Below are positions 11,014 through 31,952 of a stretch of DNA of 34,226 nucleotides, piece after piece; the stretch's first letter is position 1, and every line of letters starts with the position of its first letter. This stretch comes from Deltaproteobacteria bacterium (GTDB lineage: Bacteria; Desulfobacterota; Syntrophobacteria; Syntrophobacterales; Syntrophobacteraceae). The stretch lies in NCBI GenBank assembly GCA_021793275.1, contig JAJYTC010000030.1:1-34226 (forward strand), read 5' to 3'. The position numbers were made by a program, and so were the translations under genes. Below the pieces are notes generated by a model. It worked only from the letters and a program-made list of their open reading frames with translations, was not told the DNA's origin and ran no database searches.

Positions 11014-11081
11014 TGATAAAATCCGTGAATAATGAGTACGGTCTAGCAGGACACCGGCGCCGCCGGTGGCAACCTGACTGA

Positions 11082-11414
11082 TTAACAGTTCCTGGGATGG
11101 GGAAGCCCGGCGAGCCGCCTGGCGCCGCGCCTGATCCCTCCGGGGAAAAGGCGCTCGATCTCGAGAAGACTGAAACCTGTCTGTCTTCCGAACTCCTTGT
11201 TGAGCGGCGCCCTGCCGTTGGCCAGGTAGAAAGCGCGGAAAAACCGGATCGTTTCCCAATGGCGATCGCTGAGTTTTGCAATGCCCATCTCCGAGGCCAT
11301 TATCTCCGCGATCGCCTCAGTCCATTCTTCAGGGTTTACAAAAAATCCCTCTTCGTCGAGCAGGACCTCTACACCACCGATGACCCTCTTCATAGGATCG
11401 CGCTCAGGGGCCAT
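11082..11414 (-). CDS. DsrC/TusE-family sulfur-carrier-like protein with a single C-terminal Cys
   Basis: GVEVLLDEEGFFVNPEEWTEAIAEIMASEMGIAKLSDRHWETIRFFRAFYLANGRAPLNKEF...LFPGGIRRGARRLAGLPHPRNC. An alternative start is at 11393. Confidence 0.9.
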   Translation of the reverse strand: MAPERDPMKRVIGGVEVLLDEEGFFVNPEEWTEAIAEIMASEMGIAKLSDRHWETIRFFRAFYLANGRAPLNKEFGRQTGFSLLEIERLFPGGIRRGARRLAGLPHPRNC

Positions 11415-11480: not shown

Positions 11481-14141
11481 TCAAATCGAAGGCTTTTCTT
11501 TGCCCATCGCCCGGAGAACTCGTTCCGGGGTCGCCGGCAGATCGCAGATCCGTTCTGCTCCCGTGGCGTTCTGGATGGCGGTAATTATGGCCGCCGAGGT
11601 CGGCAAAAGAACAAATTCGCCGACTCCGACCGCTCCAAGCGGCCCTCTTTTCCGCGGGGTCTGAAGCAGGATGATTTCCATGTCGAAAGCCGTCCGGGTG
11701 GTCGGAAACCTGCTTGTGACCCAGTCGCGCGTCTTGCCGTGGACGTAGTGCTCGCGCAGGGCCATTCCGGCGCCCATATCGAGCCCGCCCTCTATCTGCC
11801 CTTCCACTATTTTCGGATTGAGAACCGTTCCCGGATCGACCACGGCGGTCATCTTCAAGATACGAACCTCGCCGGTCTGCGTATCCACTTCGACTTCCGC
11901 CATCTGCACCCCGTGGACACGGGATTCGAAAGGCGCGCCCTGGCCTTTTTCCGGATCGAGCCCGGTGGTCTCCGCGATTTTGGTCCCCATATACTTAGTG
12001 GGCTTCCCCATGGCCGTGAGTTGATTGTAATCGTTCGCGCCCGCTTCGGCCATAGCTTTTTTAAGCATCCCGATCGCGTTTACAAGCGCGCCTCCGCTCA
12101 TGTAAGTCACCCGGCTGCCCGAGGCGGAGCTGGAATCGGGAGTGAGACCCGTATCGCGGGTGACAAGCCTGATCTTCGCTGCCGGGATCCCGGTAAGGTG
12201 TGATGCAATCTGGGTCAACATGGCGTCATTGCCCTCGCCGGGGTCGGAAACCGAGCCGTAAACCGTAAGACCCCCATCAGGCATGAGTTCGACCGCGACC
12301 TGGGAGCGGTCCGGACCTCCCTTGCCTACCCCGAAGCTTCCGCCCGCAAGCCCTACCCCCCGCTGGAACCGGCCGTTGCCTGCCGAGGCGCAATCTTTTC
12401 CGGCCCTTTCATAATGTTTCCGGATCGCTTCGAGACATCCGCGATAAGGCCATTCATCGACAACCTGTCCCGTTGAAATCGACCGGCCCGGCTCTAACGA
12501 ATTCATGATGCGAAATTCCAGCGGGTCGACTCCAAGCCGGGCAGCCAGCATCTCCATGGCGGATTCGAGGGCGAAATTGACCTGCGGCGGCCCTGCCCCC
12601 CTGGCTGCGCCTCCGGGCGGATTGTTCGTGTAGACGAGCCTTGCACTGGCCGCGACATTGGGAATGTCATAGGAGCCGCTCAGCATGTAGAGCGCTCGAT
12701 TGACGATGGACTTTCCAACCGAAATGTAGGCGCCGTTGTCAACGGTAAAATCGATCTCATATCCGGTGAGCTTGCCGGCAGCATCGGCGCCGAGCCGCAC
12801 CTTCATGTCGAAGGGATGACGTTTCGTGGTTATCCACATGGATTCCGTGAGGCTGCAGACGTAACGCACGGGACGCTTCACATGCAGGGCGGCGGCGCCC
12901 GCCAGTCCCTCCGCCGTGATGTCCGCCTTTATGCCGAACTGGCCGCCGCTAAAGGCCTGGTAATATCGCATATCCTCCCAGCCAAGCGCATCCTGGAGGG
13001 TTTGCAGATGCGCGTGAATATTGATGCTCCGCCCGACAACCACAAGTTGCGGCCCATCGGGATCGTCTTCGAAATACGCCAGCGAGGCTTCGGGTTCGAG
13101 CGGCGACTGGTGAATACACTGGGTTGAAAAACTCTTTTCCACTACCACATGAGAATTTGCGAGGGCCGACTTTGCGTCCCCCTTGATCTGAGGATGAGAA
13201 AAACAAAGGTTTGGAATTTTTTCATGGATCCGGCAGCAGCCTTCCGTCAATGCCTCTTCGGGCGAATAGATCACCGGGAGGCCTTCATACTCGACCTTGA
13301 CCGCCTCCGCACCCGCCAGAGCGCTTTCCCTGGTCTCGGCTATCACCGCGGCCACGGCGTCTCCCATCATGTGCACCTTTTCATCGCAGATAACCGGCTG
13401 ATCCGCCTTGATCCGGTTCGTGCCCTTTATGTCTTTTGCCGTCATGACGGCAACGACGCCCGGAACTTTTTCAGCAATCGAAACATCTATCGATTTTATA
13501 AGAGCGTGAGACAGGGGGGAGCGCACCGCCGCGAGTTCCAAAACGCCTTCTTTCCGGATGTCCGCCGTGAAAAGGGCCTTGCCCGTCGCAAGGAGCAACG
13601 CGTTCGGTCGGACGTGAGACACCCCCACGGCGCCCGCGCCCGCTTCCGGACGCACGTCGCCGGGGCTTAGCTCACCACGCAAAAACCTTCCCGCAAGCTT
13701 TACGGCCTCAATTATTTTCTTATATCCCGTGCAGCGGCACAGATTGTGCGAAAAGGCCTTCTTGATCATATCGGTATCGGGGTCGGGGTCCTGGTCCAGG
13801 AGAGCCTTGGCTGCCATGATCATCCCGGGGGTGCAAAAACCGCATTGAACCGCACCGCTTATGGCAAACGCCTCCTGAATCAGATGGGGATTCTCGGGCG
13901 TGCCCAGTCCCTCGATGGTTATCACATCGGCGCCCTCCAGGCCGGCAACCGGCGTCAGGCAGGAAAGGACCGCCTTCTTGTTGACCAGAACAGTGCAGGC
14001 GCCGCACTGTCCCTTGCGGTCGCATGATTGCTTGGTTCCTGTCAAGTTCTTGGTTTCTCGCAAGAAATCGATCAGGGCCAGCTTATCTTCAACGACACAG
14101 GTCTGCCGAATCCCGTTCAGAGTGAATTTTACCTCTTTCAT
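11481..14141 (-). CDS. Xanthine dehydrogenase/aldehyde oxidoreductase-family molybdenum hydroxylase with fused [2Fe-2S] and molybdopterin domains
   Basis: CDRKGQCGACTVL, CGFCTPGMIMAAKALL and NLCRCTGYKKI cluster motifs, a large Mo-binding domain, and C-terminal GVGEFVLLPTSAAI containing the expected catalytic Glu. No FAD domain. Confidence 0.9.
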   Translation of the reverse strand: MKEVKFTLNGIRQTCVVEDKLALIDFLRETKNLTGTKQSCDRKGQCGACTVLVNKKAVLSCLTPVAGLEGADVITIEGLGTPENPHLIQEAFAISGAVQCGFCTPGMIMAAKALLDQDPDPDTDMIKKAFSHNLCRCTGYKKIIEAVKLAGRFLRGELSPGDVRPEAGAGAVGVSHVRPNALLLATGKALFTADIRKEGVLELAAVRSPLSHALIKSIDVSIAEKVPGVVAVMTAKDIKGTNRIKADQPVICDEKVHMMGDAVAAVIAETRESALAGAEAVKVEYEGLPVIYSPEEALTEGCCRIHEKIPNLCFSHPQIKGDAKSALANSHVVVEKSFSTQCIHQSPLEPEASLAYFEDDPDGPQLVVVGRSINIHAHLQTLQDALGWEDMRYYQAFSGGQFGIKADITAEGLAGAAALHVKRPVRYVCSLTESMWITTKRHPFDMKVRLGADAAGKLTGYEIDFTVDNGAYISVGKSIVNRALYMLSGSYDIPNVAASARLVYTNNPPGGAARGAGPPQVNFALESAMEMLAARLGVDPLEFRIMNSLEPGRSISTGQVVDEWPYRGCLEAIRKHYERAGKDCASAGNGRFQRGVGLAGGSFGVGKGGPDRSQVAVELMPDGGLTVYGSVSDPGEGNDAMLTQIASHLTGIPAAKIRLVTRDTGLTPDSSSASGSRVTYMSGGALVNAIGMLKKAMAEAGANDYNQLTAMGKPTKYMGTKIAETTGLDPEKGQGAPFESRVHGVQMAEVEVDTQTGEVRILKMTAVVDPGTVLNPKIVEGQIEGGLDMGAGMALREHYVHGKTRDWVTSRFPTTRTAFDMEIILLQTPRKRGPLGAVGVGEFVLLPTSAAIITAIQNATGAERICDLPATPERVLRAMGKEKPSI

Positions 14142-14280: not shown

Positions 14281-15924
14281 TTAAACCGATGCAGGTTTCC
14301 ACAGTTTGAAATCATCCGCTATGGCTTTGTAACAGTTGTAGCTCGACCCGCGCCCTATGCCCGGACCGCCGTAGGTACCCGATGAACACTGGTAGAGGTT
14401 CTTTATGGGGGTCCTGTGACCTCCGGGCGTACCCCGGAAACGGCCGTTCTGAATGCCCGAGCAGTTGCCTTCGCACCAGCCGCCTTCCTTCATATCCAGG
14501 TGAGTGTCCTGAATGTCGGTCGGGTTTGTGATGCGATGAACGATAAGATTGTCTCTGGTCATGTTGGGCGCATACTCGGCCCAGGTTTCAAAAAGAACGT
14601 CCACGAACTGCTCGGTCAACTGCTTCCATTCCTTCCTGGAAAATATTCGCGCCGGGCAGGTGAACTCCTCGACGTGGAGCGAATGCTTGCCCGCGGGCAC
14701 CCTGCTCGGGTCCCAGATGCTGTCGGGCGCAGTGAGTATGAACATCTTAGAAGGCATACCCGCAAGAAAGATCTCGTGCATGTACTTGTCTTCCATGAAC
14801 GCAAGGTCCTTGGGAGCGAAGTAGGTTCGAGGCGTGCAGTTGACGTCCGGGTTCGATTTGGCCGCCTTGTAGTTGGGAAGTTCATGGACCCCCACCGTTC
14901 CCCAGAAAAGCTCGCCCCGGTCGAACTGGTAGGTTCGGGCCATGCGCTTCATCTGGTCGCTTATCCTGTCCTCACCTATCAACCGCAGGAAGAGCTGAGG
15001 GGATGCGTTGTCGGAAACCACCAGTTGCTTCGCGGTAATCTCGGTGCCGTCCATGAGCTTTATCCCGCTGGCCCTGCCGTTCTCCATGAGCACCCTTTGC
15101 ACTTCCGAATTCAATTGGGAATCGACGCCCAGTTTTTTCCCGGCCGAAACCAGCGCAGCCGTGATGGAACCCGTGCCGCCCTTCACGATAGCCGCCGTTT
15201 CCCAGCCCAGGGTCAGGTGAATGGTTGCGATGATGATGTTAAGACCCGGCACATCGTCGGGGAAAACCCCCCATGAGGTGAGAAATCCCCTGAGAGTTAT
15301 GATCCTCAGCTCATCGCTTTCGAAAAAGTAGCGTGCCACATGCTTGGCGGTCATGTACTGCATCGAGATGTCGAGGCCGCTCGCAGGATCGAGGCAAAGC
15401 TCTTCCAGGGCGTCGGGCACTCCCCAGGGGCTGGGAGGCGAATAGCGGTGCTTGTGAAACGCAGGGCGCCATTTGGTCCTGTACTTTTCGGTCAGGTCCA
15501 GATAGGTTTCGGCGTCCACCTTGGAAAAGCGCGAGATCTGCTCGTAGGTCTTTTTGACGTTTTCTTCGTTGAACCGGGTTTCACCGGTCATCGGATCGAC
15601 CACCGTGAACGCCGCGTAAGCGACATAGCTGGTCTCGTCATCGAATACGATGGCTTCATTGGTGTCCGGGAAGGTGTACTCCAGGCCTTCTTCGCGAAGA
15701 TTGAATTCCTTGTAGGCCGGGTGACCATAGTAGCGCGTAAAATGGGCGCAGAAATTTCCCCGGAACCCGGGCGAGGGAAGATCCTCCGTGACCGCTCCCC
15801 CTCCGAGATGATCGAGCCGCTCGAAAACACCGACCTTCAGACCGGCCTTGGCGAGATAAGGAGCAATGGTCGTACCGTGGTGACCGCCCCCGATAATTAC
15901 CGCATCATAAGCTTTGTCCGACAT
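14281..15924 (-). CDS. Phytoene-desaturase-like FAD-dependent oxidoreductase
   Basis: YDAVIIGGGHHGTTIAPYLAKAGLKVGVFERLDHLGGGA Rossmann motif. C-terminal YQCSSGTYGGPGIGRGSSYNCYKAIADD. Confidence 0.85.
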   Translation of the reverse strand: MSDKAYDAVIIGGGHHGTTIAPYLAKAGLKVGVFERLDHLGGGAVTEDLPSPGFRGNFCAHFTRYYGHPAYKEFNLREEGLEYTFPDTNEAIVFDDETSYVAYAAFTVVDPMTGETRFNEENVKKTYEQISRFSKVDAETYLDLTEKYRTKWRPAFHKHRYSPPSPWGVPDALEELCLDPASGLDISMQYMTAKHVARYFFESDELRIITLRGFLTSWGVFPDDVPGLNIIIATIHLTLGWETAAIVKGGTGSITAALVSAGKKLGVDSQLNSEVQRVLMENGRASGIKLMDGTEITAKQLVVSDNASPQLFLRLIGEDRISDQMKRMARTYQFDRGELFWGTVGVHELPNYKAAKSNPDVNCTPRTYFAPKDLAFMEDKYMHEIFLAGMPSKMFILTAPDSIWDPSRVPAGKHSLHVEEFTCPARIFSRKEWKQLTEQFVDVLFETWAEYAPNMTRDNLIVHRITNPTDIQDTHLDMKEGGWCEGNCSGIQNGRFRGTPGGHRTPIKNLYQCSSGTYGGPGIGRGSSYNCYKAIADDFKLWKPASV

Positions 15925-15951: not shown

Positions 15952-16743
15952 TTACCTGAGTTCGGCCAGCACCGCGGCCAGCCTTTCAGCCTGTTCCTCC
16001 GCCGAGCCTTCTATAAGCGTGCATTCCCGCCCCATATCGGCAGGCGGCGCCAGTTCCGTCAGTTGAAGCTTCCTTAACCGCTCGACATCGCAGCCGAGAT
16101 CCTTACTGTTCCATTTCGGGATGGTCATCGGACGCCTCAGAAGCCCCAGCATCTTGCTGCGGGCCACATACCGCAACTCGCCAACCTCGTTGCTTACCGT
16201 CACAAGGGCGGGAAGCGCAGCTTCGACCACCTCGTAGCCAACCGGCACGGTCTTTTCCACCAGCAGTTTTCCGTCGTCTATCTTTATCGACCGCGCAAGG
16301 CTTACGCAGGCGACATCGAGCATCTCTCCCAGGATCAGGCCCACCTGCCCCGAGTCCCAGTCGCCGGCCTGCCTGCCGGTCAAAACGAGGTCCCAGTCAC
16401 CGATCTTTTTGATCGCGCAGGAAAGAACATGCGCCGTGGAAAAGCTATCCAGCCCTTCGAACAACGGGTCTTCCAAGAGCACCAGGGAGTCGGCGCCCGC
16501 CGCGATCGTCTTCCTCAGCACCGTATCTGAAACCTTCCGGCCCATGCTGAGAACCGTTATCTTTCCCCCCAGCTCTTCCTTTATCCTGATCGCGGCCTCC
16601 AGAGCGTTTTCATCATAGGGGCTGATGACGTCCGGAGCGTCCACACTCACCTGCTTTTTCTCCACGTTCACGGTAACGTCGGAAAACGGCGCTTCCGGAT
16701 CGGGTATCTGCTTTGCGCAGACAATGATTTGCGGCTCTTTCAT
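15952..16743 (-). CDS. etfB: Electron transfer flavoprotein beta subunit
   Basis: IVCAKQIPDPEAPF...ISPYDENALEAAIRIKEELGGKITVLSMG...DLVLTGRQAGDWDSGQVG. Confidence 0.92.
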   Translation of the reverse strand: MKEPQIIVCAKQIPDPEAPFSDVTVNVEKKQVSVDAPDVISPYDENALEAAIRIKEELGGKITVLSMGRKVSDTVLRKTIAAGADSLVLLEDPLFEGLDSFSTAHVLSCAIKKIGDWDLVLTGRQAGDWDSGQVGLILGEMLDVACVSLARSIKIDDGKLLVEKTVPVGYEVVEAALPALVTVSNEVGELRYVARSKMLGLLRRPMTIPKWNSKDLGCDVERLRKLQLTELAPPADMGRECTLIEGSAEEQAERLAAVLAELR

Positions 16744-17729
16744 TATCGTTCCTCCAGTTTCTTCACCAGGGCGGGGACTATGTCCCTGTAGTCGCCAACA
16801 ACTCCGTAGTCGGCCACCTTGAACATGTTGCAGCCGGGATCGGTATTTATGGCCACAATCTTTTTGGACCGGATCATCCCCACCAGATGCTGGATCGCTC
16901 CCGATATCCCTACCGCTATGTAGGCATCAGGGGAGATGATCGTTCCGGTAAGCCCCACCTGGCGGTCCGAAGACATCCAGCACTTGTCGACTACCGGACG
17001 GCTGCACCCGACCATCACGTTGCCGTGCGACCCGCTCAGCGCGGCCGCAAGCGCCTCGAGCATTTCGAAATCCTCTTTGGCCTCTATCCCTCTTCCTCCG
17101 GATATGACCACATTGGCCTTGTCCAGCTCGACCACTTCCTGCTCGACCGTCTGTATGGTTTTCACCCTGATCGAGGATTCCGCGATGCCAGGCGCCATAT
17201 CGACAATCGCGCTTCGAGTCTGCGCCTCATCTATCGGCTCGAAGGCGTTCTTTCGAACCGTCACCATCTGCGGAACGCCCTCACACTTGACCGTAGCGAT
17301 GGCGTTACCCCCGTAGATCGGCTTTGTCCTCACAAGCAGGCCGTCTTCAGGATCCACTCTCAAGTTCAGGCAGTCGGTGGTAAGGCCGGTATTCAACCTG
17401 CACGCGAGCCTCGGCCCCACTTCCTTTCCCACAAACGAGTGGCTCATGAGAAATATCCCCGGTTTCACCTGCCCGCACAGCCATTCCAGTCCGCCCACCC
17501 AGGCATCGGCATTGAAGCCCTCGAGCAGGGGATGTTCGAGCCTGTAGACCTTGTCCAGCCCGAAAGAGGCGGCCGACTCGGCCAACTGCGCCGTCTGACT
17601 CCCAACCACCACGGCGTTGGCCTCAACGCCCAGTTGGCTGCCAAGCCCTTTTGCACCCCGCATCAGCTCCAGGGTCTTTTTGTCCAATATTCCATCTTTG
17701 GCCTCAACCAACAGCAGTATCTCGCTCAT
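16743..17729 (-). CDS. etfA: Electron transfer flavoprotein alpha subunit
   Basis: VVISGGRGIEAKEDFEMLEALAAALSG, ISPDAYIAVGISGAIQHLVGMIRSKKIVAINTDPGCNMFKVADYGVVGD. GGAGG lies before the start at 17729. Confidence 0.92.
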   Translation of the reverse strand: MSEILLLVEAKDGILDKKTLELMRGAKGLGSQLGVEANAVVVGSQTAQLAESAASFGLDKVYRLEHPLLEGFNADAWVGGLEWLCGQVKPGIFLMSHSFVGKEVGPRLACRLNTGLTTDCLNLRVDPEDGLLVRTKPIYGGNAIATVKCEGVPQMVTVRKNAFEPIDEAQTRSAIVDMAPGIAESSIRVKTIQTVEQEVVELDKANVVISGGRGIEAKEDFEMLEALAAALSGSHGNVMVGCSRPVVDKCWMSSDRQVGLTGTIISPDAYIAVGISGAIQHLVGMIRSKKIVAINTDPGCNMFKVADYGVVGDYRDIVPALVKKLEER

Positions 17730-17751
17730 CTCAGCCAGTCCTCCTTGTTGT

Positions 17752-19737
17752 TTATTGTCCATCGGAAACCGATTGGAGAAGCAACTCGTTTAGGTCCATT
17801 ACCTTCAATTCGTTTTCAAATCCCACGGTCTTCAAAGCATCCTCGAGCATGATCAGGCAGAGGGGACAGGCGGTGACCAGAACCCTGGCGCCCGTCCGGT
17901 GCGCCTCCCTGATCCTGATTTCGCTCATTCTGGCCTCGCCCCGAATCTCCTGCCCCTGCCACATCCTTCCCCCTCCTCCGCCGCAGCAGAGGCTGTCCGG
18001 ACCATGGTGGGCCATCTCGACGAGTTTTATTCCGGGAATCGAGCGGATGACCTGCCTCGGATCATCGAAAATGCGGTTGTGCCGGCCAAGGTAACAGGGA
18101 TCGTGATAGGTCACCGTGAAGTCCAGCGCCTTTTTCGGCTCGAGCTTCCCGCCAGCGACCAGATCCTTTAAAACCGCCGAATAATGGCGCACCCTGAACA
18201 TCGAGCCGGGATATTCGTTAAGAAAGGTGTGAAAGCAGTGCGGAGAAGACGTTACGATGTCGGATACCGAAAGTTTTTCGAAAAGCTCGGAACAGCCTTC
18301 CATTTTCTCCTGAAACAGCCCCAGTTCTCCCACTACTCTCGCAATGTCTCCGCAACACGGCTCTTTGTCCCCGAGGATCGCGAAATCCATCCCCGCGAGT
18401 TTCAGAAGCTTCGAGAAGGACACGGCTATCGCCTGGGCCCTGGCGTCAAAGGAGGTGGTGCATCCGACGAAGTAGCAAAGTGGACCCCGGCTTAAAACTT
18501 GCCGGGGTGACGAACCATCGTTTTTCCCCCCGGCCTTGATAACCGGCACATCGAGCCCCTTTGCCCAGACAGTCCGGTCTCTTTTGGACGAAACCCAGGG
18601 ATTATCGTAGTTGAAGAGCCTCTCGAGGGTCTGGTTCAAAACATCCGGCACCCCCTTGCCCTCTTCGATCAGCATGGCCCGTTTTTTCCCGACGGCCCTG
18701 AACGGAGCCCCGTACACCGGGCAAACTTCCATGCACGCCCCGCAGGTTGTGCAAAACCAGGCGGCCTTATCCCCCTCGATCCCGTCCACGTTAAGCAAAA
18801 ACCGGATGTCTCCGGCCGGCGAATGCTCCTGCCACAGTAAATGTCGCGCGGTCTGCACAAAGTCGCGCGGTGAGAGAGGCTCGCCCGCTCCCGCCGACGG
18901 GCATGCCTGCACACAACGCCCGCACCGCGTGCAGGCATCGAGAAAAGCCGTCTCGGCGATCTCCCATTGAACACCCGATGCAATCGCTTCCTCGGGCTCT
19001 TCCGAAGCTTCCACCGGAGAATGGTGCAGGTAATAGGCAGCAGGCGCCCCGACCAGGTGAAAGAGCTTCGTGTAAGGAATCGCGGCGATGAATGCCAAAC
19101 AGAGCAACGCATGGCCCCACCACAGGCCCGGGTATATCGACAGGGCCGTCGCCTGCGGGATAAAACCGGCGATAAGAGGACCGAAAAACGCCCACTCGGT
19201 CCACGGAGGTCTTTGGGCCGAAAGTATCACTGCCTCCAAAAAAAAGCCCGAACACACTACCACCAGGAACCAAAGAACCACGACTCCGTCCTCGAGTCTT
19301 CGTTCGAGCCTTGGCGCCCGCTGAATATATCGGCGCACAAGCGACCAGATAATCCCGGCCAGCAGAAGCATCCCGCCGATCTCCATCGACAATCCGAAAA
19401 ATAGATACTTCTTTCCGGTAAGAAAGGGATACACATGACCATCTATAGCCAGCAATGTGGTGCCGATCAGTAAGATGATAAATCCCCAGAACGTCAGGAA
19501 ATGAGCAATACCCGCCTGGATATCGCCTTTAAACAGGCGGATGCCGAACACTATCTCGAAGATCGACTGCTTCACGGCCTGCCATGAAAAGGACGTTTTG
19601 TTTTTTGATGTGCTTTTTCGCCATACACTTATATGAATGCCGACTCCTACCGCGAATATGCATATGGCAAGAAAGGCTATTGTATAAAACAGCCAGACAT
19701 CATTTATTTTCCAAAACATGGGCCTTTCCGGAATCAT
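17752..19737 (-). CDS. Membrane-bound FeS oxidoreductase with HdrD-like CCG domains (putative Etf:quinone oxidoreductase)
   Basis: Several N-terminal transmembrane stretches; two 4Fe-4S motifs (CTRCGRCVQACP, CTTCGACMEVCP); CCG-type motifs (CCGDIARVVGE, DSLCCGGGGGRMW). Immediately upstream of etfAB. Confidence 0.88.
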   Translation of the reverse strand: MIPERPMFWKINDVWLFYTIAFLAICIFAVGVGIHISVWRKSTSKNKTSFSWQAVKQSIFEIVFGIRLFKGDIQAGIAHFLTFWGFIILLIGTTLLAIDGHVYPFLTGKKYLFFGLSMEIGGMLLLAGIIWSLVRRYIQRAPRLERRLEDGVVVLWFLVVVCSGFFLEAVILSAQRPPWTEWAFFGPLIAGFIPQATALSIYPGLWWGHALLCLAFIAAIPYTKLFHLVGAPAAYYLHHSPVEASEEPEEAIASGVQWEIAETAFLDACTRCGRCVQACPSAGAGEPLSPRDFVQTARHLLWQEHSPAGDIRFLLNVDGIEGDKAAWFCTTCGACMEVCPVYGAPFRAVGKKRAMLIEEGKGVPDVLNQTLERLFNYDNPWVSSKRDRTVWAKGLDVPVIKAGGKNDGSSPRQVLSRGPLCYFVGCTTSFDARAQAIAVSFSKLLKLAGMDFAILGDKEPCCGDIARVVGELGLFQEKMEGCSELFEKLSVSDIVTSSPHCFHTFLNEYPGSMFRVRHYSAVLKDLVAGGKLEPKKALDFTVTYHDPCYLGRHNRIFDDPRQVIRSIPGIKLVEMAHHGPDSLCCGGGGGRMWQGQEIRGEARMSEIRIREAHRTGARVLVTACPLCLIMLEDALKTVGFENELKVMDLNELLLQSVSDGQ

Positions 19738-19847: not shown

Positions 19848-20507
19848 TTAGAATTTTTTCATCATTTCACCTAACAAATACGGTACTTCTATCCTTCCGG
19901 TCGGAGCCAGTATCCTGTTGCTGTAATCCGTAGCATATTTATCTTTCAGGGTATTGGCTATTTTTCTGAAAAGGGGCTTTTCGATGGCCTCCGCGATAGC
20001 TGCGAGGCTCCTGCACGTACACTCTGCAAGAATCCTGGGGCCGCTGCCTATAGCCAACCGCCATGCCCCCGTCACGGGGATTTTCAATTCTTCCATCGCC
20101 GGCATGCATTCTTCAATGACAAAATCTGCATGCTCTTTTTCCCTGCCGCTGAGGACATTGTAATAGTGATTGAATTTCCAGACCCCGGTCTGAATGCGAT
20201 AAGGTCCTTCCTCCATGCGGCCTGCCGGGACATAGACCCTGTTATTGTATTTCCATACGAATTCGGACAACCCGGAGGCAAGTTCCAGGTACTCGCGCGA
20301 AGAAATGGTCCGCCGCAAATTGTCGGCCTCATCGACCGTAGCTACTGCGACTATCCTTGGACCTTCCCCCACCGCAACGTAATAACCTCCCACCAGTCGT
20401 ATCCCCAAATCCTCCAGGCCCGGGTTGTAAGTGTTCAAGATAAAAGAGGAATATTCATCGAACTTTCCGGGTATCACGTCCCAGTACTGCACAAACAGGA
20501 TGGCCAT
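19848..20507 (-). CDS. Tandem-repeat alpha/beta-barrel (ABM/NIPSNAP-like) protein
   Basis: Two similar halves: ...IRLVGGYYVAVGEGPRIVAVATVDEADNLRRTISS... and ...IPVTGAWRLAIGSGPRILAECTCRSLAAIAEAI.... Confidence 0.6.
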   Translation of the reverse strand: MAILFVQYWDVIPGKFDEYSSFILNTYNPGLEDLGIRLVGGYYVAVGEGPRIVAVATVDEADNLRRTISSREYLELASGLSEFVWKYNNRVYVPAGRMEEGPYRIQTGVWKFNHYYNVLSGREKEHADFVIEECMPAMEELKIPVTGAWRLAIGSGPRILAECTCRSLAAIAEAIEKPLFRKIANTLKDKYATDYSNRILAPTGRIEVPYLLGEMMKKF

Positions 20508-20529: not shown

Positions 20530-21555
20530 CTAAGATTTGAACATGCGGGTCATAAGCTCAGCCAGGTATTCGGCTTCCTTTTCTTTGGTCTTCGAGTATT
20601 TGGCCGGTCTCGCCTGGACCCAGTAAAGGTTCTCCGGACAGCACCCCGAGCAATCCAGGACCCATTCCATATCCTGCGGGCAGTTGAAATAGGACTCTAC
20701 TTCCTTGGCAATGCGCACTATTTCCTTTAACTCTTTCTCATCCACACAAGGTTTGGCCTGAATGTCCCCGGGCACATCGGTCATTGCGGTCCCGGAATCC
20801 TTGTAGACGATCATCTTCGTCTTCTTATTGACCGTACACTCCACACACCCGCTCTCTTTATCCACGATGTACTGGTCCGGGGTGATCTCTCCGCTGACAA
20901 CGCTTTCGCCCAACCCCCAGTTTCCTTCCACCACGACTTTGGAGGTGTCTCCAACCGTCGGCAGCACAGTCAGGACTACACCCGCCGACTTGGCATCCAC
21001 CATTTTGAGCACCGCGACCCCGATGGGCGCCTTGTCAAGCGGCATCCCCTTCTCCAGCCTGAAGGCTATGGCCCTGGTAGTAAAGGCGCTTCCCCAGACC
21101 TCGATAACCTTGCGCACAACCGACTCTTTGCGCCGCACGTTCAGATAGGTCTCCATCTGGCCGGGCATGCTCACTGCGCCGCTGGAACGGACGGCCACGG
21201 CAATTTCGTCCTCGCCCGCCCGTTGTTTCAACTCCTCGTAATACCGGTACAATTCGTCTCTCATGTCGGGAGGCATTTCCTGCGATTCAATGATTTGCCG
21301 AATTGTCCGGCTGGCCTCCACCTGCTTTCTAACGTTTTTCAATTCGTTCACGTTATCCCGGACGTATTGGCGTATCAACTCACCGGCGCCCGTTTCAGCC
21401 ATGAATCGTTCATATCCCTCCACCGATATGGCAAATCCCGGTGGTATCCGCATCCCCAGTCCGGTCATCTCTCCAAGGTTGGCGCATTTTTTCCCTACCA
21501 GATCGTTATGTCCGCTATTCAATTCCTCAAACCAGTACAGCCACTTCTTACTCAT
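20530..21555 (-). CDS. PEP-synthase/PPDK ATP-grasp-like subunit (phenylphosphate synthase beta paralog)
   Basis: LVGKKCANLGEMTGLGMRIPPGFAISVEGYERF, AVAVRSSGAVSMPGQMETYLNV, GVAVLKMVDAKSAGVVLT, EGNWGLGESVVSGEITPDQY. RBS aaggaga lies before the ATG at 21555. Confidence 0.85.
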   Translation of the reverse strand: MSKKWLYWFEELNSGHNDLVGKKCANLGEMTGLGMRIPPGFAISVEGYERFMAETGAGELIRQYVRDNVNELKNVRKQVEASRTIRQIIESQEMPPDMRDELYRYYEELKQRAGEDEIAVAVRSSGAVSMPGQMETYLNVRRKESVVRKVIEVWGSAFTTRAIAFRLEKGMPLDKAPIGVAVLKMVDAKSAGVVLTVLPTVGDTSKVVVEGNWGLGESVVSGEITPDQYIVDKESGCVECTVNKKTKMIVYKDSGTAMTDVPGDIQAKPCVDEKELKEIVRIAKEVESYFNCPQDMEWVLDCSGCCPENLYWVQARPAKYSKTKEKEAEYLAELMTRMFKS

Positions 21556-21688
21556 CAAATCATCTCCTTGCGAAATCCAGGCATGGTTCGAATCATCGTC
21601 GCGGTCTCTGGCCGAAAAACAGGACTCGCAGGGTTTGGCTAACCCGATCAACTTCAGACGCCTCGAAGCAGATGGAGTGGAGATATAT

Positions 21689-21714
21689 CCGGGGTGCAAA
21701 CCTTTACACCCCGG
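21689..21714. other. Intercistronic perfect inverted repeat
   Basis: CCGGGGTG-caaaccttta-CACCCCGG between the two PEP-synthase-like genes. No U-tract on either side. Confidence 0.7.
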
Positions 21715-21747
21715 ACAGGTAACTGGACCCGCGACTTGGACGAAATC

Positions 21748-23430
21748 TCATTTATCCAATATGAACACGGCGCCCAGATTGGCATCCACCTTGACCCTCT
21801 GGCCCGATTTGATTTTGGCGGTGCCCTCGAAAACGTTCATGACAACCGGAATCCCGTATTCCCTGCCCACAATCGCCGCATGGGAAAGGCTTGCCCCACG
21901 GTCGACGATCACCCCCTTGATCATGGAGAAAACGGGGGTCCAACTGGGCGAGGTGCTAGCCGCCACGAGGATATCCCCTTCTTCGATCAGGTGGAGCTCA
22001 TCTTCGCTCAGGATCACCCGTGCAGTCCCCTCGGCCACCCCGGGCGAACCGCAGGTGCCGTAAAGGTCGGCCTTGAGTTCGGGACGCACCTGCGGCATGG
22101 AGCCCACAACCACTTTGAGGGCGATGGGGTCCATCGACTGGACCAGCACTCCCATGGCCATATCCAGGTCGAAACCCTCTTTGAGCAAGGCCGGCGGGTT
22201 GGGGGTTTTCATCCATTCATTCCACTCGCCTTTTCGCCGCTCGACGAGGTAGCGCAAATCGAACTGGTCGGGGTTGATCCCCGCACGTCTGACCTCGTCG
22301 GGCATGAGAAAGAATATATCCTCGGCCCCGTCTAAAGCCCCCTTCTGAACGAAGCGGTTTCCAAGACCCAGAGCGCTCCTGCGCATCATGGCGTGGGTAT
22401 AGAGATCCAGGTAGTGATCGTGCTCTTCGCTGAATATCCCGCTTTTCTGCGCCAGGACCATAAGGCGCTCGAACCAGCCTCTTTGTTCCTGGGGCACCTT
22501 GGATAACACGGTCTTTTCAGCCTCTTTGCGCTGTTCGGTAATCTTTTTCCTCTCTTCGTCGAGATTGAAGTTCCCGCCTTTCTGGATAAACTGCTTGACG
22601 TTGACCAGAGCGGGAGTCGGGTCTTCGACCCAACTGGGAAGGTTTATTTCCGACATGCGCTGCATCCTCCAGCCGTCTTCATTCATGAAGGACATGAAAT
22701 CCTTCATAAAGGCTCTTCCTGCGGCCGATTCGTCGAGTCTGCCCACGATTTCCGAGGCATTGCTTTGCACCAATGTCTCAGCCAGCCCTTCCTCTCGCGC
22801 CCGCTTGGAAAACTCCCAAAGCCGGCGATCCACCTGAAACACTTTGTTGTCAAAACCGGAAACCAGATTATGAAAAATGGGCGAGGTGTCGTCGATTCCT
22901 GCCAACTCACGGCACATGTTCTCAAAAAGTATATAGGCGGTATAAGTGCCGTACATCATGTACATGTGGATTTCCCACATGCGCCTGCAGGTGTTTATCG
23001 TCTCTTCGAAATTATCCAGCAGTTCGATATTCGAAGCTTTTTCAACATCGAGGGCCTTCAGTTTTTCGTATCGGCCCAGCATCTCCTTTACGAAGCCGCC
23101 CCACAAACCGTCATAGTCTTCAATGAAAGGCAAAATGGCCTTGCGAAATTCCGCTTCTCTTCTTTGTTTTTCCTCTTCGCTCTTAACCAGCAGCAAGGTC
23201 AGATATCCGCCTCCCTTATGAAACCTCCAGTCCCAGCCCTTGACCGTGGGCAGGCTCAGCTTTTCCGCCCCGTACTGCATTCCGTGGCGGCAGAAATTGA
23301 CCCAGAACCATCCAAACATCGGGGTCCAGGGCGGCACGGAATGGGTACCGTCCAAAAACCACGCCGGCGACTGGGCAAAATCTCTTTCAGCATCAAATTC
23401 CAAACCGGGGACGACATCGTACACTTTCAT
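21748..23430 (-). CDS. PEP-utilizing central/phosphohistidine-domain subunit (phenylphosphate synthase alpha-like paralog)
   Basis: C-terminal GDILVAASTSPSWTPVFSMIKGVIVDRGASLSHAAIVGREYGIPVVMNVFEGTAKIKSGQRVKVDANLGAV is the phosphohistidine swivelling domain. GGAGAGGGA RBS. Confidence 0.85.
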   Translation of the reverse strand: MKVYDVVPGLEFDAERDFAQSPAWFLDGTHSVPPWTPMFGWFWVNFCRHGMQYGAEKLSLPTVKGWDWRFHKGGGYLTLLLVKSEEEKQRREAEFRKAILPFIEDYDGLWGGFVKEMLGRYEKLKALDVEKASNIELLDNFEETINTCRRMWEIHMYMMYGTYTAYILFENMCRELAGIDDTSPIFHNLVSGFDNKVFQVDRRLWEFSKRAREEGLAETLVQSNASEIVGRLDESAAGRAFMKDFMSFMNEDGWRMQRMSEINLPSWVEDPTPALVNVKQFIQKGGNFNLDEERKKITEQRKEAEKTVLSKVPQEQRGWFERLMVLAQKSGIFSEEHDHYLDLYTHAMMRRSALGLGNRFVQKGALDGAEDIFFLMPDEVRRAGINPDQFDLRYLVERRKGEWNEWMKTPNPPALLKEGFDLDMAMGVLVQSMDPIALKVVVGSMPQVRPELKADLYGTCGSPGVAEGTARVILSEDELHLIEEGDILVAASTSPSWTPVFSMIKGVIVDRGASLSHAAIVGREYGIPVVMNVFEGTAKIKSGQRVKVDANLGAVFILDK

Positions 23431-23681: not shown

Positions 23682-24434
23682 CTAATGCATTGCTCGACCT
23701 CCATCTATCAACAGTGTCTGACCGGTGATAAAGTCGCTTTCCGCCGAGGCCAGAAAAAGCGCGGCCCCCACCAGGTCTTCGGGTCTCTCCAATCTGTGCA
23801 AAGGGGTCTTTGAGACATCGTACCTGGAAACATCGGCCAGACCACGACTGGCTTCCGTGTCCGTAAATCCGGGGGCGATACAGTTTATGCAGATTTGATG
23901 AGGTCCCAGTTCAACGGCCAGCGCACGGGTAAGACCGATAATGCCTCCCTTGGACGCCACGTAGTGGGCGAAACCATTTGAGCCGGTAAAGAAAACCTCC
24001 GAAGCCAGATTGACGATTTTCCCGTAACCCTGCTCTTTCATGTATGGAAAAACGGCCCGGGTAGCTATAAACGCCCCTTTCACATTGACGTTCATGACCA
24101 GGTCCCATTCCGCCAGGTCGATCTCGAAAAAGGGCTTTCTTTTTATCCCGTCGTAGACGGCGGCATTGTTGATCAGGACATCCACGCGACCGAACCTCTC
24201 GATTGTCGCCTGCACCATGTTTTTGGCATCGGCCTCCGAGGAAACGTCGGCGCGAACCATTTCCGCCTCCCCACCCAGCGAACGCACCATTTTCACCGTC
24301 TGGTCCAGGTTGTCCATGTCCTTTCGAGTTACGGCCACCACCTTGGCCCCTTCCCGGGCCAGCCCGAGGCAGAACGCCCTGCCCAAACCTTTCGCCCCGC
24401 CGGTCACGATAGCCACCTTTCCACTCAGCCGCAT
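23682..24434 (-). CDS. Short-chain dehydrogenase/reductase
   Basis: MRLSGKVAIVTGGAKGLGRAFCLGLAREG, DVLINNAAV, YVASKGGIIGLTRALAVELG, and a terminal FITGQTLLIDGG. RBS aggaggg. Confidence 0.93.
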   Translation of the reverse strand: MRLSGKVAIVTGGAKGLGRAFCLGLAREGAKVVAVTRKDMDNLDQTVKMVRSLGGEAEMVRADVSSEADAKNMVQATIERFGRVDVLINNAAVYDGIKRKPFFEIDLAEWDLVMNVNVKGAFIATRAVFPYMKEQGYGKIVNLASEVFFTGSNGFAHYVASKGGIIGLTRALAVELGPHQICINCIAPGFTDTEASRGLADVSRYDVSKTPLHRLERPEDLVGAALFLASAESDFITGQTLLIDGGRAMH

Positions 24435-24491
24435 AGCGCACCCTCCTGTTTCACGATACAAAATCGCCAACCTATCCAGCAGAGCTTATGA

Positions 24492-24640: not shown

Positions 24641-25978
24641 CTAAATCACGAGCTTGTATTTTTGAATCTTGCTTCTCAGGGTGGGACGCGAAATCTTTAG
24701 CAGCTTGGCGGCCTGGGTGAGGTTCCCGTTGGCAGTCTTCAAAGCTCTGCGTATGATCTCCTCCTCGGCTTCGCCAAGCCAGGTAACAGTCGAACTATCC
24801 GGGTAGCGTTTGCTGCGAACCAGGATCTCTCTTACCGTCTCCTCCAGGATCACCTCCTCTTTTCCCAAAATAGAGGCCAGCATAAGAAGGTTTTCCAGTT
24901 CCCGCACGTTTCCGGGCCAATCGTATTCGACCAGAAGCCGAATCGCCCCGTCCTCGATTTTCAACACCCCCGTATGATGGTCGCGATTGATTTTGTGCAG
25001 AAAGTGCTGAATGAGCACGGGGATGTCTTCGCGGCGCTCCCTCAGCGGAGGGATATAAACGGTCAGGACCTTCATGCGGTAATAGAGGTCCTTTCGGAAT
25101 TTCCCCTGGGCAACGGCCTGGTAGAGGTCGCGGTTGGTCGCAACGATAATGCGCGCGTTCGATTTTTTCTGGGCGACGCCGCCTATGCGGTGATACTCCT
25201 TCTCCTGCAAAAAACGCAGCAGTTTGCCCTGGAGGGTGAAGGGAAGGTCGGCGATTTCATCAAGGAAAATGGTCCCTTCCGACGCCATTTCGAACAATCC
25301 TCGATGGCTTTCCACGGCCCCGGTAAAAGAGCCCTTTTCGTGACCGTAAAGAGTGCTCTCCGAAAGTGTTTCCACTATGGTGGTGCAATCGACGGTAACA
25401 AAAGGGCCGTCCTTGTGCGGACTGTTTTCATGGATCACCTGGGCCATAAGCTTCTTGCCGGTCCCGGTCTCCCCGCGAATGCCAACCGAAACGGTACTGT
25501 TGGCGATCAGGCCGATAAACTTGTAAATATCGAGCAAGGCCCTGCTGCGGCCGATCAGTGCGTACCCGCCCGACGAAAGGGATTCAGGGGGTTTTAGCGG
25601 AGAAATCTTGGCATTCAATGTAAGAAGCCGAATGGCCTTCTGAATTTTTCGATCCAGTTCTTCAAAATCGATATCTTCCGGGAGGTAATCGTATGCGCCA
25701 AGCTTCATGGCCTGGATAGTGGCGTTCATGTCCTGGTGGGCGGAAAGAAGAATAATCTTGGAATGAGGCAATTCCTGCCGGACAAGCCTTACTATCTCAA
25801 GGGCTTTCATGCCCGGCGGATCGTCCCCGAGAAGGACCATGGAAGGCTTCGCGGCCCCAATCAAGGCCGGCAGGTCTTCCCCCGAACCTGCGACACGGAC
25901 TTCGTAGCGCCCTTCCAGGAACCCTGCAAGTCTTTTCCGAAAAGAAGGATTCCCTCCGATGATCAAGACTTTATTCAT
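24641..25978 (-). CDS. NtrC-family sigma54-dependent activator with a degenerate receiver domain
   Basis: AAA+ motifs: GETGTGKKLMAQVIH, GSFTGAVESHRGLFEMA, GTIFLDEIADLPF. Fis-type HTH AAKLLKISRPTLRSKIQKY. N-terminal receiver-like fold lacks the canonical Asp and Lys residues. Confidence 0.93.
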   Translation of the reverse strand: MNKVLIIGGNPSFRKRLAGFLEGRYEVRVAGSGEDLPALIGAAKPSMVLLGDDPPGMKALEIVRLVRQELPHSKIILLSAHQDMNATIQAMKLGAYDYLPEDIDFEELDRKIQKAIRLLTLNAKISPLKPPESLSSGGYALIGRSRALLDIYKFIGLIANSTVSVGIRGETGTGKKLMAQVIHENSPHKDGPFVTVDCTTIVETLSESTLYGHEKGSFTGAVESHRGLFEMASEGTIFLDEIADLPFTLQGKLLRFLQEKEYHRIGGVAQKKSNARIIVATNRDLYQAVAQGKFRKDLYYRMKVLTVYIPPLRERREDIPVLIQHFLHKINRDHHTGVLKIEDGAIRLLVEYDWPGNVRELENLLMLASILGKEEVILEETVREILVRSKRYPDSSTVTWLGEAEEEIIRRALKTANGNLTQAAKLLKISRPTLRSKIQKYKLVI

Positions 25979-26282
25979 GATCACCGCCCGCTGTATAGAT
26001 AGACTTTCCGTAGAAAAGGTATGGTTGAACGAGCCTTTTTTTCCCATTTCATGATTCACTTAGCATGAATCAGGGGTATCGTCAATCGAACGGGACGGGT
26101 ATAATGCAACCCGATCTTCCTTCGGGATTTTTCGCGCCCTTCGTGGTTAACATACTGCTTCCACGATAAGGGAAGAACATACTGCTGTAAACGCGAAGGC
26201 GAGGCACTGGCGTGGAACTGCTCCCAGCTAAGCCCGTACGCCGCCCGCGTAGCGGCGCAACCTAATGTTTCAAGGCCAAGGC

Positions 26283-28860: not shown

Positions 28861-29523
28861 TCACCGGTTCTCGCAACGACAAAACGGCCAGACAGCGGTC
28901 TCATACAGCTTTGAGACCAAATCCTCCTCTCTTTTCGCCGCTTGCTCGCGAGCCAGCCTCAGGGCCGTTGCGGTAAAAAACCACTTCTCCGTGACCCGGG
29001 ACAGCCAGGACAGATAACTCGCCGGTTCACGTTCGAACACCTTGAAATAGATTCCAAAGCCGATCCTGGAAAAACGGAACAGCTTGTCGGAATCTTTCAC
29101 TATCATATCATCAATATCTATCGCCTCGGCCCTGGAATCATGACCGTCGATAATCAACTCTATTTTTCCCGTCAAATCTTCGGGGTATTGCAACCGGCGC
29201 AGAATCGACCCCGCAAGCCTGGCCCCCTCGATTTCATGCTGCCTTCGCAGATCGGGCTCTTTTACTACCGGGCCGAATGCGAGCAGTTGCCTTTCCTCGG
29301 AAAGCGTGGACCACCCCACGTCATGAAGCAAAATCGCAGGAGCCACAATAGAGCGCGCCCCTCCCTCGACGGACAGAAGGTGCATCGCATACCAATAGGA
29401 AATAACGGTGTGGATGACGTTATGTCTGGTGCGAAGATAGGGTTCTGCCTTTTCGAAAATGGATTTATGGAGCGGATCTTCGATGTCCGGAACGTTTTCG
29501 ATTTCACTGAGTATTGTTATCAT
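28861..29523 (-). CDS. HD-domain phosphohydrolase-like protein
   Basis: RHNVIHTVISYWYAMHLL...ILLHDVGWS...HEIEGARLAGSIL...IIDGHDSR. Confidence 0.82.
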   Translation of the reverse strand: MITILSEIENVPDIEDPLHKSIFEKAEPYLRTRHNVIHTVISYWYAMHLLSVEGGARSIVAPAILLHDVGWSTLSEERQLLAFGPVVKEPDLRRQHEIEGARLAGSILRRLQYPEDLTGKIELIIDGHDSRAEAIDIDDMIVKDSDKLFRFSRIGFGIYFKVFEREPASYLSWLSRVTEKWFFTATALRLAREQAAKREEDLVSKLYETAVWPFCRCENR

Positions 29524-29629
29524 AGCGAGGCTATTATACATTTGTGGGTCAAAATAGCAACCGTGTACTCGCCTGCCCCTCCTCCTCAATCCATAATCTG
29601 TCTTTATGACTGGTATAACTTTAAATGAG

Positions 29630-29971: not shown

Positions 29972-31810
29972 GTGGGAGATCAGAAATTTCCTTCGCCACA
30001 TGAGATCGAAACAATTCCGGGGACTGAAGGATGGGAGCGGATGTATCCCTACCACTACCTCTTCTCCACCGAAAACAAGGAGCGCAAAACCTACGAAGAG
30101 AACATGTTCTGGTTCAACGACGGCCTGCATTACCCGGAACCGATGTATCCGTTCGATATTATTTGGGATGAGGCATGGTTCCTCGCCCTTTCCCAGTTCA
30201 ACACCCGCATCTTCATGATCCCTCCGGCCCTGGGCGTCGACCACCGCATCATCAACGGCAACGTCTATATTACGCCCGTTCCGGTTGCCGATCCCCAGGA
30301 AATTCAGAACCGCGTTCCGCTGTTCATGGAACGGGCCGGCTACTATTTCGAGCACTGGAACGAACTCCACGATAACTGGGAAAACAAGATGCGCGGGATC
30401 ATAAACGATCTCAAGGCGCTCCCGATAACCCCCCTGCCCCAGATGGAAGATATCTCCACGGTAAAAGAAGGGCTCGGCACATCCAGCGGATACCAGCTTC
30501 TCAAAAGCTACGACACGCTGATCGACCTGGGCATCCTCTGCTGGCAGTACCACTTTGAATTCCTGAACCTCGGCTACGCCGCCTATGTCACTTTTGTCGA
30601 CTTCTGCACAAAGGCATTCCCCGATATATCGCTTCAAAAGATTTCCCAGATGGTCGGCGGTATAAACGTCATCCTTTACCAGCCCGACGAGGAGTTGAAA
30701 AAACTCGCCAAGCTGGCCATGGAAAAAGGCATTGCCGATCAAATCCTTGGCGCAAAGACAATCGACGAGGTCACCAGCGGGATCAATGGTTCCCCAGACG
30801 GCCGCAAATGGCTCGAAGCCTGGGATGCCGCCAAAGACCCCTGGTTCTACATTTCCACGGGTACTGGCTGGTACCATCACGACAGTTCCTGGAATGACGA
30901 TCTCAATATTCCGATGAACGCCATGAAGATTTACATCCGCAAATTGAAAGAGGGCCAGAGCATCGATCGTCCTCTTGCCGATATTCAGGAAGAGCGGGAA
31001 CGGCTGGTAAGGGAATACAGAGCGCTGCTCCAGACCGAAGAAGACAAAAAGACCTTCGACCAGCTCTACAACACCTCCAAGCTGGTATTCCCCTACGTGG
31101 AAAACCACATGTTCTACGTAGAAAACTGGTTCCATTCCATCTTCTGGAACAAGCTGAGGGAAGTGGCCGCGATCATGAAAGATCACGGCTTTTTGAACGA
31201 CATAGAGGATATTTGGTTTTTGAAGCGAGCCGAAATCAAGGATGCGCTCTGGGACCTGGTCACAGGGTGGGCGACGGGCAGCAAATCTTACGGCCCGCTT
31301 TACTGGCCCAAAGAAATCGCATGGCGCAAGGGGGTTTATCAGAAATTCCGGGAATGGACCCCTCCGCCCGCCGTGGGCAAGCCTCCCGAAACCATCAGCG
31401 AACCCTTCACCATCATGCTCTGGGGTATTACCAATGAGAGTATGGCCGCGTGGGCAAAGCTAAGAGAGATTACCGACCTTGACCAGGTGACGGAAATGAC
31501 GGGCTTCGCCGGCTCACCCGGTTCGGTCGAGGGTCCTGCGCGCGTTTGCAGAAACGCCAAAGAGATCGACCAGTTGCAGGACGGCGAAATCCTGGTTGCT
31601 CCTACAACTTCGCCCTCCTGGGCGCCTGCCTTCCAGAAAATCAAAGCGTGCGTGACCGATGTGGGCGGAATGATGTGCCACGCTTCCATCGTTTGCCGCG
31701 AGTACGGACTGCCCGCTGTTGTCGGCACCGGCCAGGCGACCTCGGTCATCAAAACGGGCATGCGCATCAGGGTGGATGGCAATACGGGTAAGATCAACAT
31801 CATGAGATAA
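29972..31810 (+). CDS. ppsA: Phenylphosphate synthase alpha-type subunit
   Basis: IPGTEGWERMYPYHYLFSTENKERKTYEENMFWFNDGLHYPEPMYPFDIIWDEAW...STGTGWYHHDSSWNDDLNIP...; C-terminal phosphohistidine domain VGGMMCHASIVCREYGLPAVVGTG. GTG start with GGAGG. Confidence 0.88.
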   Translation: MGDQKFPSPHEIETIPGTEGWERMYPYHYLFSTENKERKTYEENMFWFNDGLHYPEPMYPFDIIWDEAWFLALSQFNTRIFMIPPALGVDHRIINGNVYITPVPVADPQEIQNRVPLFMERAGYYFEHWNELHDNWENKMRGIINDLKALPITPLPQMEDISTVKEGLGTSSGYQLLKSYDTLIDLGILCWQYHFEFLNLGYAAYVTFVDFCTKAFPDISLQKISQMVGGINVILYQPDEELKKLAKLAMEKGIADQILGAKTIDEVTSGINGSPDGRKWLEAWDAAKDPWFYISTGTGWYHHDSSWNDDLNIPMNAMKIYIRKLKEGQSIDRPLADIQEERERLVREYRALLQTEEDKKTFDQLYNTSKLVFPYVENHMFYVENWFHSIFWNKLREVAAIMKDHGFLNDIEDIWFLKRAEIKDALWDLVTGWATGSKSYGPLYWPKEIAWRKGVYQKFREWTPPPAVGKPPETISEPFTIMLWGITNESMAAWAKLREITDLDQVTEMTGFAGSPGSVEGPARVCRNAKEIDQLQDGEILVAPTTSPSWAPAFQKIKACVTDVGGMMCHASIVCREYGLPAVVGTGQATSVIKTGMRIRVDGNTGKINIMR

Positions 31811-31841
31811 AGTGCAACATGAACATAAAATGAGAGGCTCG

Positions 31842-31877
31842 GGAGCGGTGATCCATTCACCGCTCCGTTGTTTTTGT
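31842..31877 (+). terminator. Rho-independent terminator downstream of the ppsA-like gene
   Basis: GGAGCGGTG-atccatt-CACCGCTCC, a 9-bp perfect stem, followed by GTTGTTTTTGT. Confidence 0.8.
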
Positions 31878-31952
31878 ATTCCGTGTCCCCCGCGCAAGCG
31901 CCGGCAGGCGCCGCCGCCGGGGACCTTTCCCCCACACCAGGAAGGTCGCTCT

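Follow-up and report, generated by a model that had tools for sequence, protein, structure and literature searches.

The window analysed here is the whole of a 34,226-nucleotide stretch of the forward strand of contig JAJYTC010000030.1, from a Deltaproteobacteria bacterium of the Syntrophobacteraceae (assembly GCA_021793275.1). It carries two pairs of genes for split kinases that resemble phosphoenolpyruvate synthase (PEPS), each with a beta subunit bearing the ATP-grasp domain and an alpha subunit bearing the acceptor and phosphohistidine domains. A first-pass annotation of this DNA had reported both pairs, and both are real. The left pair, whose enzyme kind, gene neighborhood and possible role in alkylphenol degradation are the subject of this work, occupies exactly positions 20530-23430 in the order alpha-beta, and the right pair, which had been given as alpha, HAD phosphatase and beta at 30.0-34.0 kb, was found at 29972-34019 on the + strand.

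The left alpha gene (21748..23430, - strand) encodes a protein of 560 amino acids (aa) that starts with MKVYDVVPG, with the phosphohistidine swivel domain PF00391 at its C-terminus (E 2.9e-22) and the catalytic histidine at position 517, within GASLSHAAIVGREYG. Adjoining it is the gene of a separate ATP-grasp (PPDK_N) subunit, the left beta (20530..21555, - strand; 341 aa, starting MSKKWLYW; PF01326, E 6.4e-86), whose ATP-grasp loop is of the short type known from pyruvate phosphate dikinase (PPDK), RSSGAVSMPGQMETYLN. An AlphaFold model of the left alpha, built with 30 relatives (pLDDT 83), was compared with solved structures by Foldseek. The model matched rifampin phosphotransferase (RPH; 5fbu) over its whole length (E 1.3e-18, TMq 0.69) and PPDK structures only in part. 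In the predicted structure the N-terminal acceptor domain has the RPH fold, in line with what has been published on HpeH (PMC12167813). Because the RPH match is whole-length and the PPDK matches are partial, the left pair is better read as a small-molecule dikinase than as a split PPDK, and judging from sequence and model it is very probably a two-component enzyme of the PpsAB/CreHI/HpeHI kind that carries out a kinase step. Its family and the aromatic-degradation background of the genome, which holds aromatic ring-degradation genes and a BamA that scores above its cut-off, suggest that it would phosphorylate a phenolic acceptor in an ATP-dependent reaction with AMP as a product. As the conserved features of the family imply, beta would bind ATP and His517 of the alpha swivel domain would receive the beta-phosphate, which the RPH-like acceptor domain would hand on to a small substrate with a hydroxyl group, most likely a phenolic one.

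The N-terminal regions of the two alphas had been described in the first-pass annotation as unrelated. We found instead that the left and right alphas are homologous end to end, with 28% identity over residues 36-610 of the right alpha (E 2.5e-43), and a seven-way alignment of diverse alphas contained 50 invariant columns, many of them within the acceptor region. The misreading arose because an extra N-terminal stretch of the right alpha had been set against the core of the left one, so that non-equivalent residues were compared. Correctly aligned, SPAWFLDGTHSVPP of the left alpha stands against NMFWFNDGLHYPEP of the right, and WFLDGTHSVPP of the left alpha corresponds to WFNDGLHYPEP of the right.

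Relationships among these subunits were examined in a quick phylogeny of 98 alphas, with RPH as the root and with some long branches, in which two Rhodococcus cresol-type kinases and one Rhizobium Hpe-like kinase served as references identified by their gene neighbors. The left alpha fell in a clade of 57 rows (SH-aLRT 99); a separate clade of 35 rows (SH-aLRT 99) held Azoarcus PpsA, the two cresol-type kinases and the Hpe-like kinase. Constraining the left and Pps alphas to one clade was rejected (p-AU 2e-70), and plain identity also separates the alphas, at 26-27% for the left and 44-62% for the right. The protein at 21.7-23.4 kb is thus not a member of the characterized phenol-specific PpsA group, since the tree places it in a clade apart from Pps. 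A scan of named genomes recovered the left-type kinase cluster at 44 loci, all labelled as metagenome-assembled genomes (MAGs), mostly from Desulfobacterota/Syntrophales, with Actinomycetota, Chloroflexota and bins labelled Proteobacteria among the others. The left pair belongs to an unstudied clade of a known enzyme kind, in a conserved and uncharacterized cluster.

Other kinases of this type are present in the same genome. At least three further alphas lie on contigs C238, C121 and C8 (loci L027, L028 and L029), 40%, 29% and 28% identical to the left alpha, respectively. The alpha on C8 is a second copy of the right alpha (82% identical), the genome holds at least four alpha types, and two related betas are encoded on contigs C46 and C31. 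A 489-aa open reading frame beside the C46 beta paralogue was considered as a UbiD and rejected, its similarity to PpcA, PpcB and UbiD being nil. UPF0261 (Tm-1-like) proteins repeatedly adjoin kinases together with an AMP-forming CoA ligase and at times DUF2284 (L027:7381-8637, L076:15635-16867, L142 and L143). Another left-type alpha (46%), the second in its contig (C35 of G007), stands at L076:13712-21674 beside UPF0261, a CoA ligase and apparent biotin carboxylase and carboxyltransferase genes, an arrangement that recalls the Hpe pathway.

The ATP-grasp motifs quoted earlier for the two betas were exact to the letter, and the likeness of the left loop to PPDK was borne out, the genome's own PPDK reading RSGAKFSMPGMMDTVLN. 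What did not survive is the use of the motif difference as a pointer to the acceptor, as short and long loops were found across both alpha classes. The short loop is kept in most betas that partner left-type alphas; left-type alphas with betas of the long PEPS-type loop occur at L086-L089, L093, L095, L097 and L102, and Pps-type alphas with short-loop betas at or near L129-L134, L158 and L159. On a beta tree that included the left beta and was built after removing the loop columns, at least two changes of loop type were needed, and a single clade of all short-loop betas was disfavored (p-AU 0.012). Since loop type is decoupled from alpha clade, the loop informs on the ATP half-reaction at most, and the free combination of the two warns against inferring substrate from the beta motif. 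The PPDK-like loop was likewise rejected as a sign of PPDK membership, on domain content and sub-cut-off scores. Characterized phenolic kinases, including HpeHI, are reported to have PEPS-like loops (PMC12167813), which makes the short-loop kinases an uncharacterized variant. The left beta lacks the long loop, a trait that is common but not defining, since short-loop Pps-type pairs exist. A hybrid loop of PEPS-like length with a PPDK-like end, RSSVAVKNTSISSFPGMMDT, was seen in a beta of the genome's own contig C121 (L028:4951-5919).

The right pair is of a type already known. Its alpha (29972..31810, + strand) is a PpsA-type phenylphosphate synthase alpha that scores 1003 bits against NF006152 (cut-off 723), lies in the Pps clade and is 62% identical to an Azoarcus PpsA. 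The latter is encoded on a plasmid, in a cluster with the gene order alpha, beta, CBS gene, ppcBDAG. Between alpha and beta lies a HAD-family phosphatase (31812..32627, + strand; PF13419), and the beta itself (32937..34019, + strand; PF01326, 396.7 bits) is PpsB-like, with a long PEPS-type loop and 61% identity to Azoarcus PpsB. The pair adjoins a phenylphosphate carboxylase gene, of which the contig end leaves only the start (UbiD/PpcB, 34046..34226, + strand); this fragment shares 62.5% identity with Azoarcus PpcB and 78% with the PpcB of L143, which itself scores above the TIGR02724 cut-off. We are confident that the right pair is a phenylphosphate synthase feeding phenylphosphate carboxylase. 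In Desulfomonile-like bins, a protein with two CBS domains, ∼36% identical to the product of the CBS gene in the Azoarcus pps cluster, occurs by the neighboring Pps-type cluster (L068, L070, L072, L085 and L143).

The conclusion of the first-pass annotation, a different acceptor for each pair, is plausible and probably correct, the left alpha lying outside PpsA. The reasons it gave do not stand, the acceptor regions being homologous and the beta motif not tracking the acceptor. A better case comes from gene context, because the right pair lies by UbiD/PpcB and the left by a short-chain dehydrogenase/reductase (SDR), a flavoprotein, a phosphatase and an aldehyde oxidoreductase, without UbiD.

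In the window, the genes accompanying the left pair are likewise on the - strand. On the alpha side lie a CreG-like SDR alcohol dehydrogenase (23682..24470), the genome's best match to the SDR of a Rhodococcus cresol-type cluster, and a sigma-54 response regulator (24641..26059; Pfam), a probable local regulator whose orthologue adjoins the SDR in L061, L063 and L139. An HD-domain phosphohydrolase (28861..29589), one of two homologues in the genome, is 41% identical to that of the Rhodococcus cresol-type cluster. On the beta side lies a double dimeric-alpha/beta-barrel (NIPSNAP/ABM-like) protein (19848..20507; PF07978, weak), the AF2 model of which (pLDDT 91) led in Foldseek to two-domain ABM and coproheme-decarboxylase-like folds. 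It is followed by a membrane Fe-S oxidoreductase (17752..19737; NarI-like, 4Fe-4S and CCG domains by Pfam) that resembles electron transfer flavoprotein (ETF):quinone oxidoreductase (EMO), by ETF alpha (16743..17762; PF01012/PF00766) and ETF beta (15952..16743; PF01012), and by a CrtI/CrtO-like flavoprotein of the FADox-B type (14281..15924; NF045689, 135 bits; motif PGFRGNFCA). Next come a Mop-type molybdenum aldehyde oxidoreductase (11481..14141; NF045668, 767 bits, under its cut-off of 1100), a cysteine-desulfurase-like protein (9871..11259; TIGR01977) that stands beside the molybdenum enzyme also in L068, L085 and L096, and an ARMT1/DUF89 phosphatase (8965..9846; PF01937) that recurs in related loci. 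A phospholipase-D-like (cardiolipin-synthase-like) gene at 26265-27701, between the two kinase clusters, seems unrelated, judging by its sequence.

Much of this gene set recurs among the 44 loci: the SDR family in 34, the CrtI-like flavoprotein in 30, the double-barrel NIPSNAP-like protein in 28, the HD protein in 16, and ETF alpha and EMO in 13 each, with the ARMT1 phosphatase and an aldehyde oxidoreductase as further recurrent companions of the kinase. ETF was present in 11/11 loci with a single flavoprotein and in 0/17 loci with two (p = 5e-8). The aldehyde oxidoreductase was tungsten-dependent (W) in 16 loci, molybdenum-dependent (Mo) in 8 and NAD-dependent in 4, no locus being counted under more than one type (p = 0.002); the W counts depend on the cut, L083, L092 and L100 being weak or partial, and both p-values overstate independence because the loci are related by descent. 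The W, Mo and NAD types are three non-homologous enzymes, and their exchange for one another suggests that the constant feature of the left clusters is an aldehyde intermediate and not one particular enzyme. No P450 homologue was found in any of the 44 loci, nor any UbiD or phenylphosphate carboxylase inside the left cluster; PpcB was matched just twice, at the periphery of L070 and of L072, next to a separate Pps-type cluster (L143; shared contigs). DsrC-like and cysteine-desulfurase-like proteins follow the Mo aldehyde oxidoreductase at L068:17129, L085:16646 and L096:14466, perhaps for cofactor sulfuration. Conserved members of the cluster also include dimeric alpha/beta-barrel proteins of two kinds, the double NIPSNAP-like protein of the window and a single ABM protein (L085:13513-13833).

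The flavoproteins of the left clusters belong to the CrtI/CrtO superfamily, in which limonene dehydrogenase and sterol delta24 desaturase share the covalent-flavin consensus GF(L/R)x(N/S)(T/L)HA (PMC11061730). Ten of the A (partner) subunits, the second flavoproteins of loci without ETF, fit this consensus exactly (GFLHNTHA), and others retain the His-Ala; the motif is only suggestive, because two of five unrelated control proteins also have a His near this site. Limonene dehydrogenase hydroxylates an (allylic) methyl group to the alcohol without O2, and alcohol and aldehyde dehydrogenases follow it (PMC4109377). By analogy, the flavoproteins of the left clusters may hydroxylate the benzylic carbon of an alkyl group.

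A second parallel is with cresol degradation. On two Rhodococcus plasmids, a row of genes encodes, in this order, a P450, beta, alpha, SDR, ferredoxin, ferredoxin reductase, HD protein and aldehyde dehydrogenase, a set that matches the functions tabulated for creCDEFGHIJ of C. glutamicum (PMC7764795). Among the SDRs of left clusters, those that match best share 46-58% identity with the Rhodococcus SDR, whose top match in this genome is the SDR of the window (47%, 212 bits, against 134 for the next, a margin of 78 bits). The HD proteins of the left clusters share 35-48% identity with that of the Rhodococcus cresol-type cluster. With kinase alphas so distant, what is held in common is the functions around the kinase together with two homologous enzymes, the SDR and the HD protein.

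Taken together, these parallels suggest that the left cluster may encode a version of the aerobic cresol (Cre) pathway that works without O2. This is our leading hypothesis, and as a reading of the whole pathway we hold it to be slightly less likely than not. An alkylphenol would be phosphorylated by the left kinase, the CrtI-like flavoprotein would oxidize its benzylic carbon and pass electrons to ETF and the membrane EMO protein, the CreG-like SDR would convert the alcohol to the aldehyde, a Mo-, W- or NAD-dependent oxidoreductase would convert the aldehyde to the acid, and the HD or ARMT1 phosphatase would remove the phosphate, the product entering benzoyl-CoA-type degradation. The order of these steps is modelled on the cre pathway. 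Gene context points, at a little under even odds, to an alkylphenol as the specific acceptor. More tentatively still, the cluster could represent an undescribed O2-independent route for cresol-like alkylphenols in several phyla of uncultured anaerobes, one in which a dikinase of a new clade acts first and a flavoprotein replaces the P450.

Several points weigh against this proposal. The left alpha shares only ∼26% identity with the cresol-type alpha, outside whose clade it lies, so that the kinase sequence alone gives no pointer to cresol. The SDR and HD proteins belong to broad families. In the window the HD gene lies ∼2.8 kb past the sigma-54 gene, behind two further genes and outside the operon proper. 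The flavoprotein of the window (GFRGNFCA) has Cys for His at the flavin-linking position, as do most B subunits, and the limonene dehydrogenase CtmAB was compared through its published motif. Benzylic hydride removal should be less favored from an aryl phosphate than from a phenolate. Finally, the substrate is deduced from loci that all come from MAGs.

Aromatization could instead come first. The SDR and the CrtI-like flavoprotein would then oxidize an alicyclic compound, a terpenoid or hydroaromatic alcohol or ketone, to a phenol, and phosphorylation by the left kinase would ready that phenol for further breakdown. CrtI-like enzymes do desaturate, ETF/EMO suits a dehydrogenase, and there is a weak similarity to 4-oxocyclohexanecarboxylate 2-dehydrogenase (NF053676, 23.8 bits). 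This order of events leaves the recurrent aldehyde oxidoreductase and the cresol-type likeness of the SDR and HD proteins unexplained, and we think it unlikely, if worth keeping in view. We also regard as improbable that the pair activates its substrate for para-carboxylation, as phenylphosphate synthase or PasAB of Desulfatiglans anilini does, with a UbiD carboxylase encoded elsewhere. The Pas-alpha of D. anilini offers a precedent, being likewise just 26.7% identical to Pps-alpha, having its catalytic His at 512, against 517 in the 560-aa left alpha, and acting on aniline and phenol, and the organism draws its carboxylase subunits from different clusters (PMC7500099). The lack of UbiD in 44/44 left clusters speaks against such a role, which would also leave the SDR, flavoprotein and aldehyde oxidoreductase without explanation.

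A slim chance attaches to the inactivation or modification of a toxic or natural-product-like molecule, which is what the nearest solved fold, RPH, does; RPH is a single chain, and the left pair sits in a conserved oxidative catabolic cluster, and its genome also encodes aromatic ring degradation. The reading as an enzyme of central metabolism, a split pyruvate-phosphate dikinase or PEP synthase, suggested by the PPDK-like loop and the PEP-synthase-type ATP-grasp domain, is refuted in the main and deserves next to no credence: only PF00391 and PF01326 were found, the pyruvate-binding PEP-utilizers C domain being on neither subunit, scores fall far under the cut-offs (264 versus 740 for PEPS and 68 versus 843 for PPDK, TIGR01828), the acceptor fold is RPH-like, and a full-length PPDK is encoded elsewhere in the genome. 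Benzene-activation clusters ('Magic'/BzS1 flavoproteins) were dropped as a comparison, since their key proteins (GlcDEF-like flavoproteins, CoA transferases and a MaoC-like dehydratase) differ and a dikinase is not reported for them.

If the proposed counterpart of the Cre pathway is real, it would be an anaerobic route to alkylphenols that uses neither a P450, nor fumarate addition, nor a quinone-methide flavocytochrome. Aromatic catabolism that begins with phosphorylation, described to date with phenol, aniline, 4-cresol and hydroxyphenylethanones as substrates, would then include a new clade, one in which we found no characterized member. Since the cluster is compact, with parts that can each be tested, the question of its substrate is answerable at the bench.

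Among known systems, the right pair belongs with PpsAB of Thauera, Aromatoleum and Geobacter. The left pair shares with PpsAB the two components, the ATP-grasp beta, the swivel-His alpha and full-length homology, but differs in its alpha, which has diverged to 26-27% identity and forms a separate clade, in its short PPDK-like loop and in a cluster without UbiD/Ppc genes. By its published description, the PasAB aniline kinase has an alpha of similar size that is similarly distant from PpsA, whereas its cluster contains a UbiD carboxylase and a CoA ligase. RPH has the same acceptor-domain and swivel fold as the left alpha, in a single chain that acts on an antibiotic. HpeHI, which acts on hydroxyphenylethanones in Rhodococcus, is also a two-component dikinase with an RPH-like acceptor domain, but its loop is PEPS-like (PMC12167813) and the left cluster is without a biotin carboxylase. 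CtmAB and sterol delta24 desaturase resemble the left-type flavoproteins in being CrtI-like, often in forming subunit pairs, and in the covalent-flavin motif of the A subunit; the flavoprotein of the window differs in standing alone with ETF/EMO, in its Cys for His and in its phenolic-type kinase context, which is not one of terpenes or sterols. A parallel in gene content is CreHI and the cre cluster for 4-cresol in Corynebacterium, with its like on Rhodococcus plasmids, where a kinase likewise stands beside a homologous SDR, an HD phosphohydrolase and an aldehyde-oxidizing enzyme. The left cluster differs from it in its distant kinase alpha, in an aldehyde oxidoreductase that is usually Mo- or W-dependent, and in having the CrtI-like flavoprotein and ETF/EMO where cre has the P450 system CreJEF.

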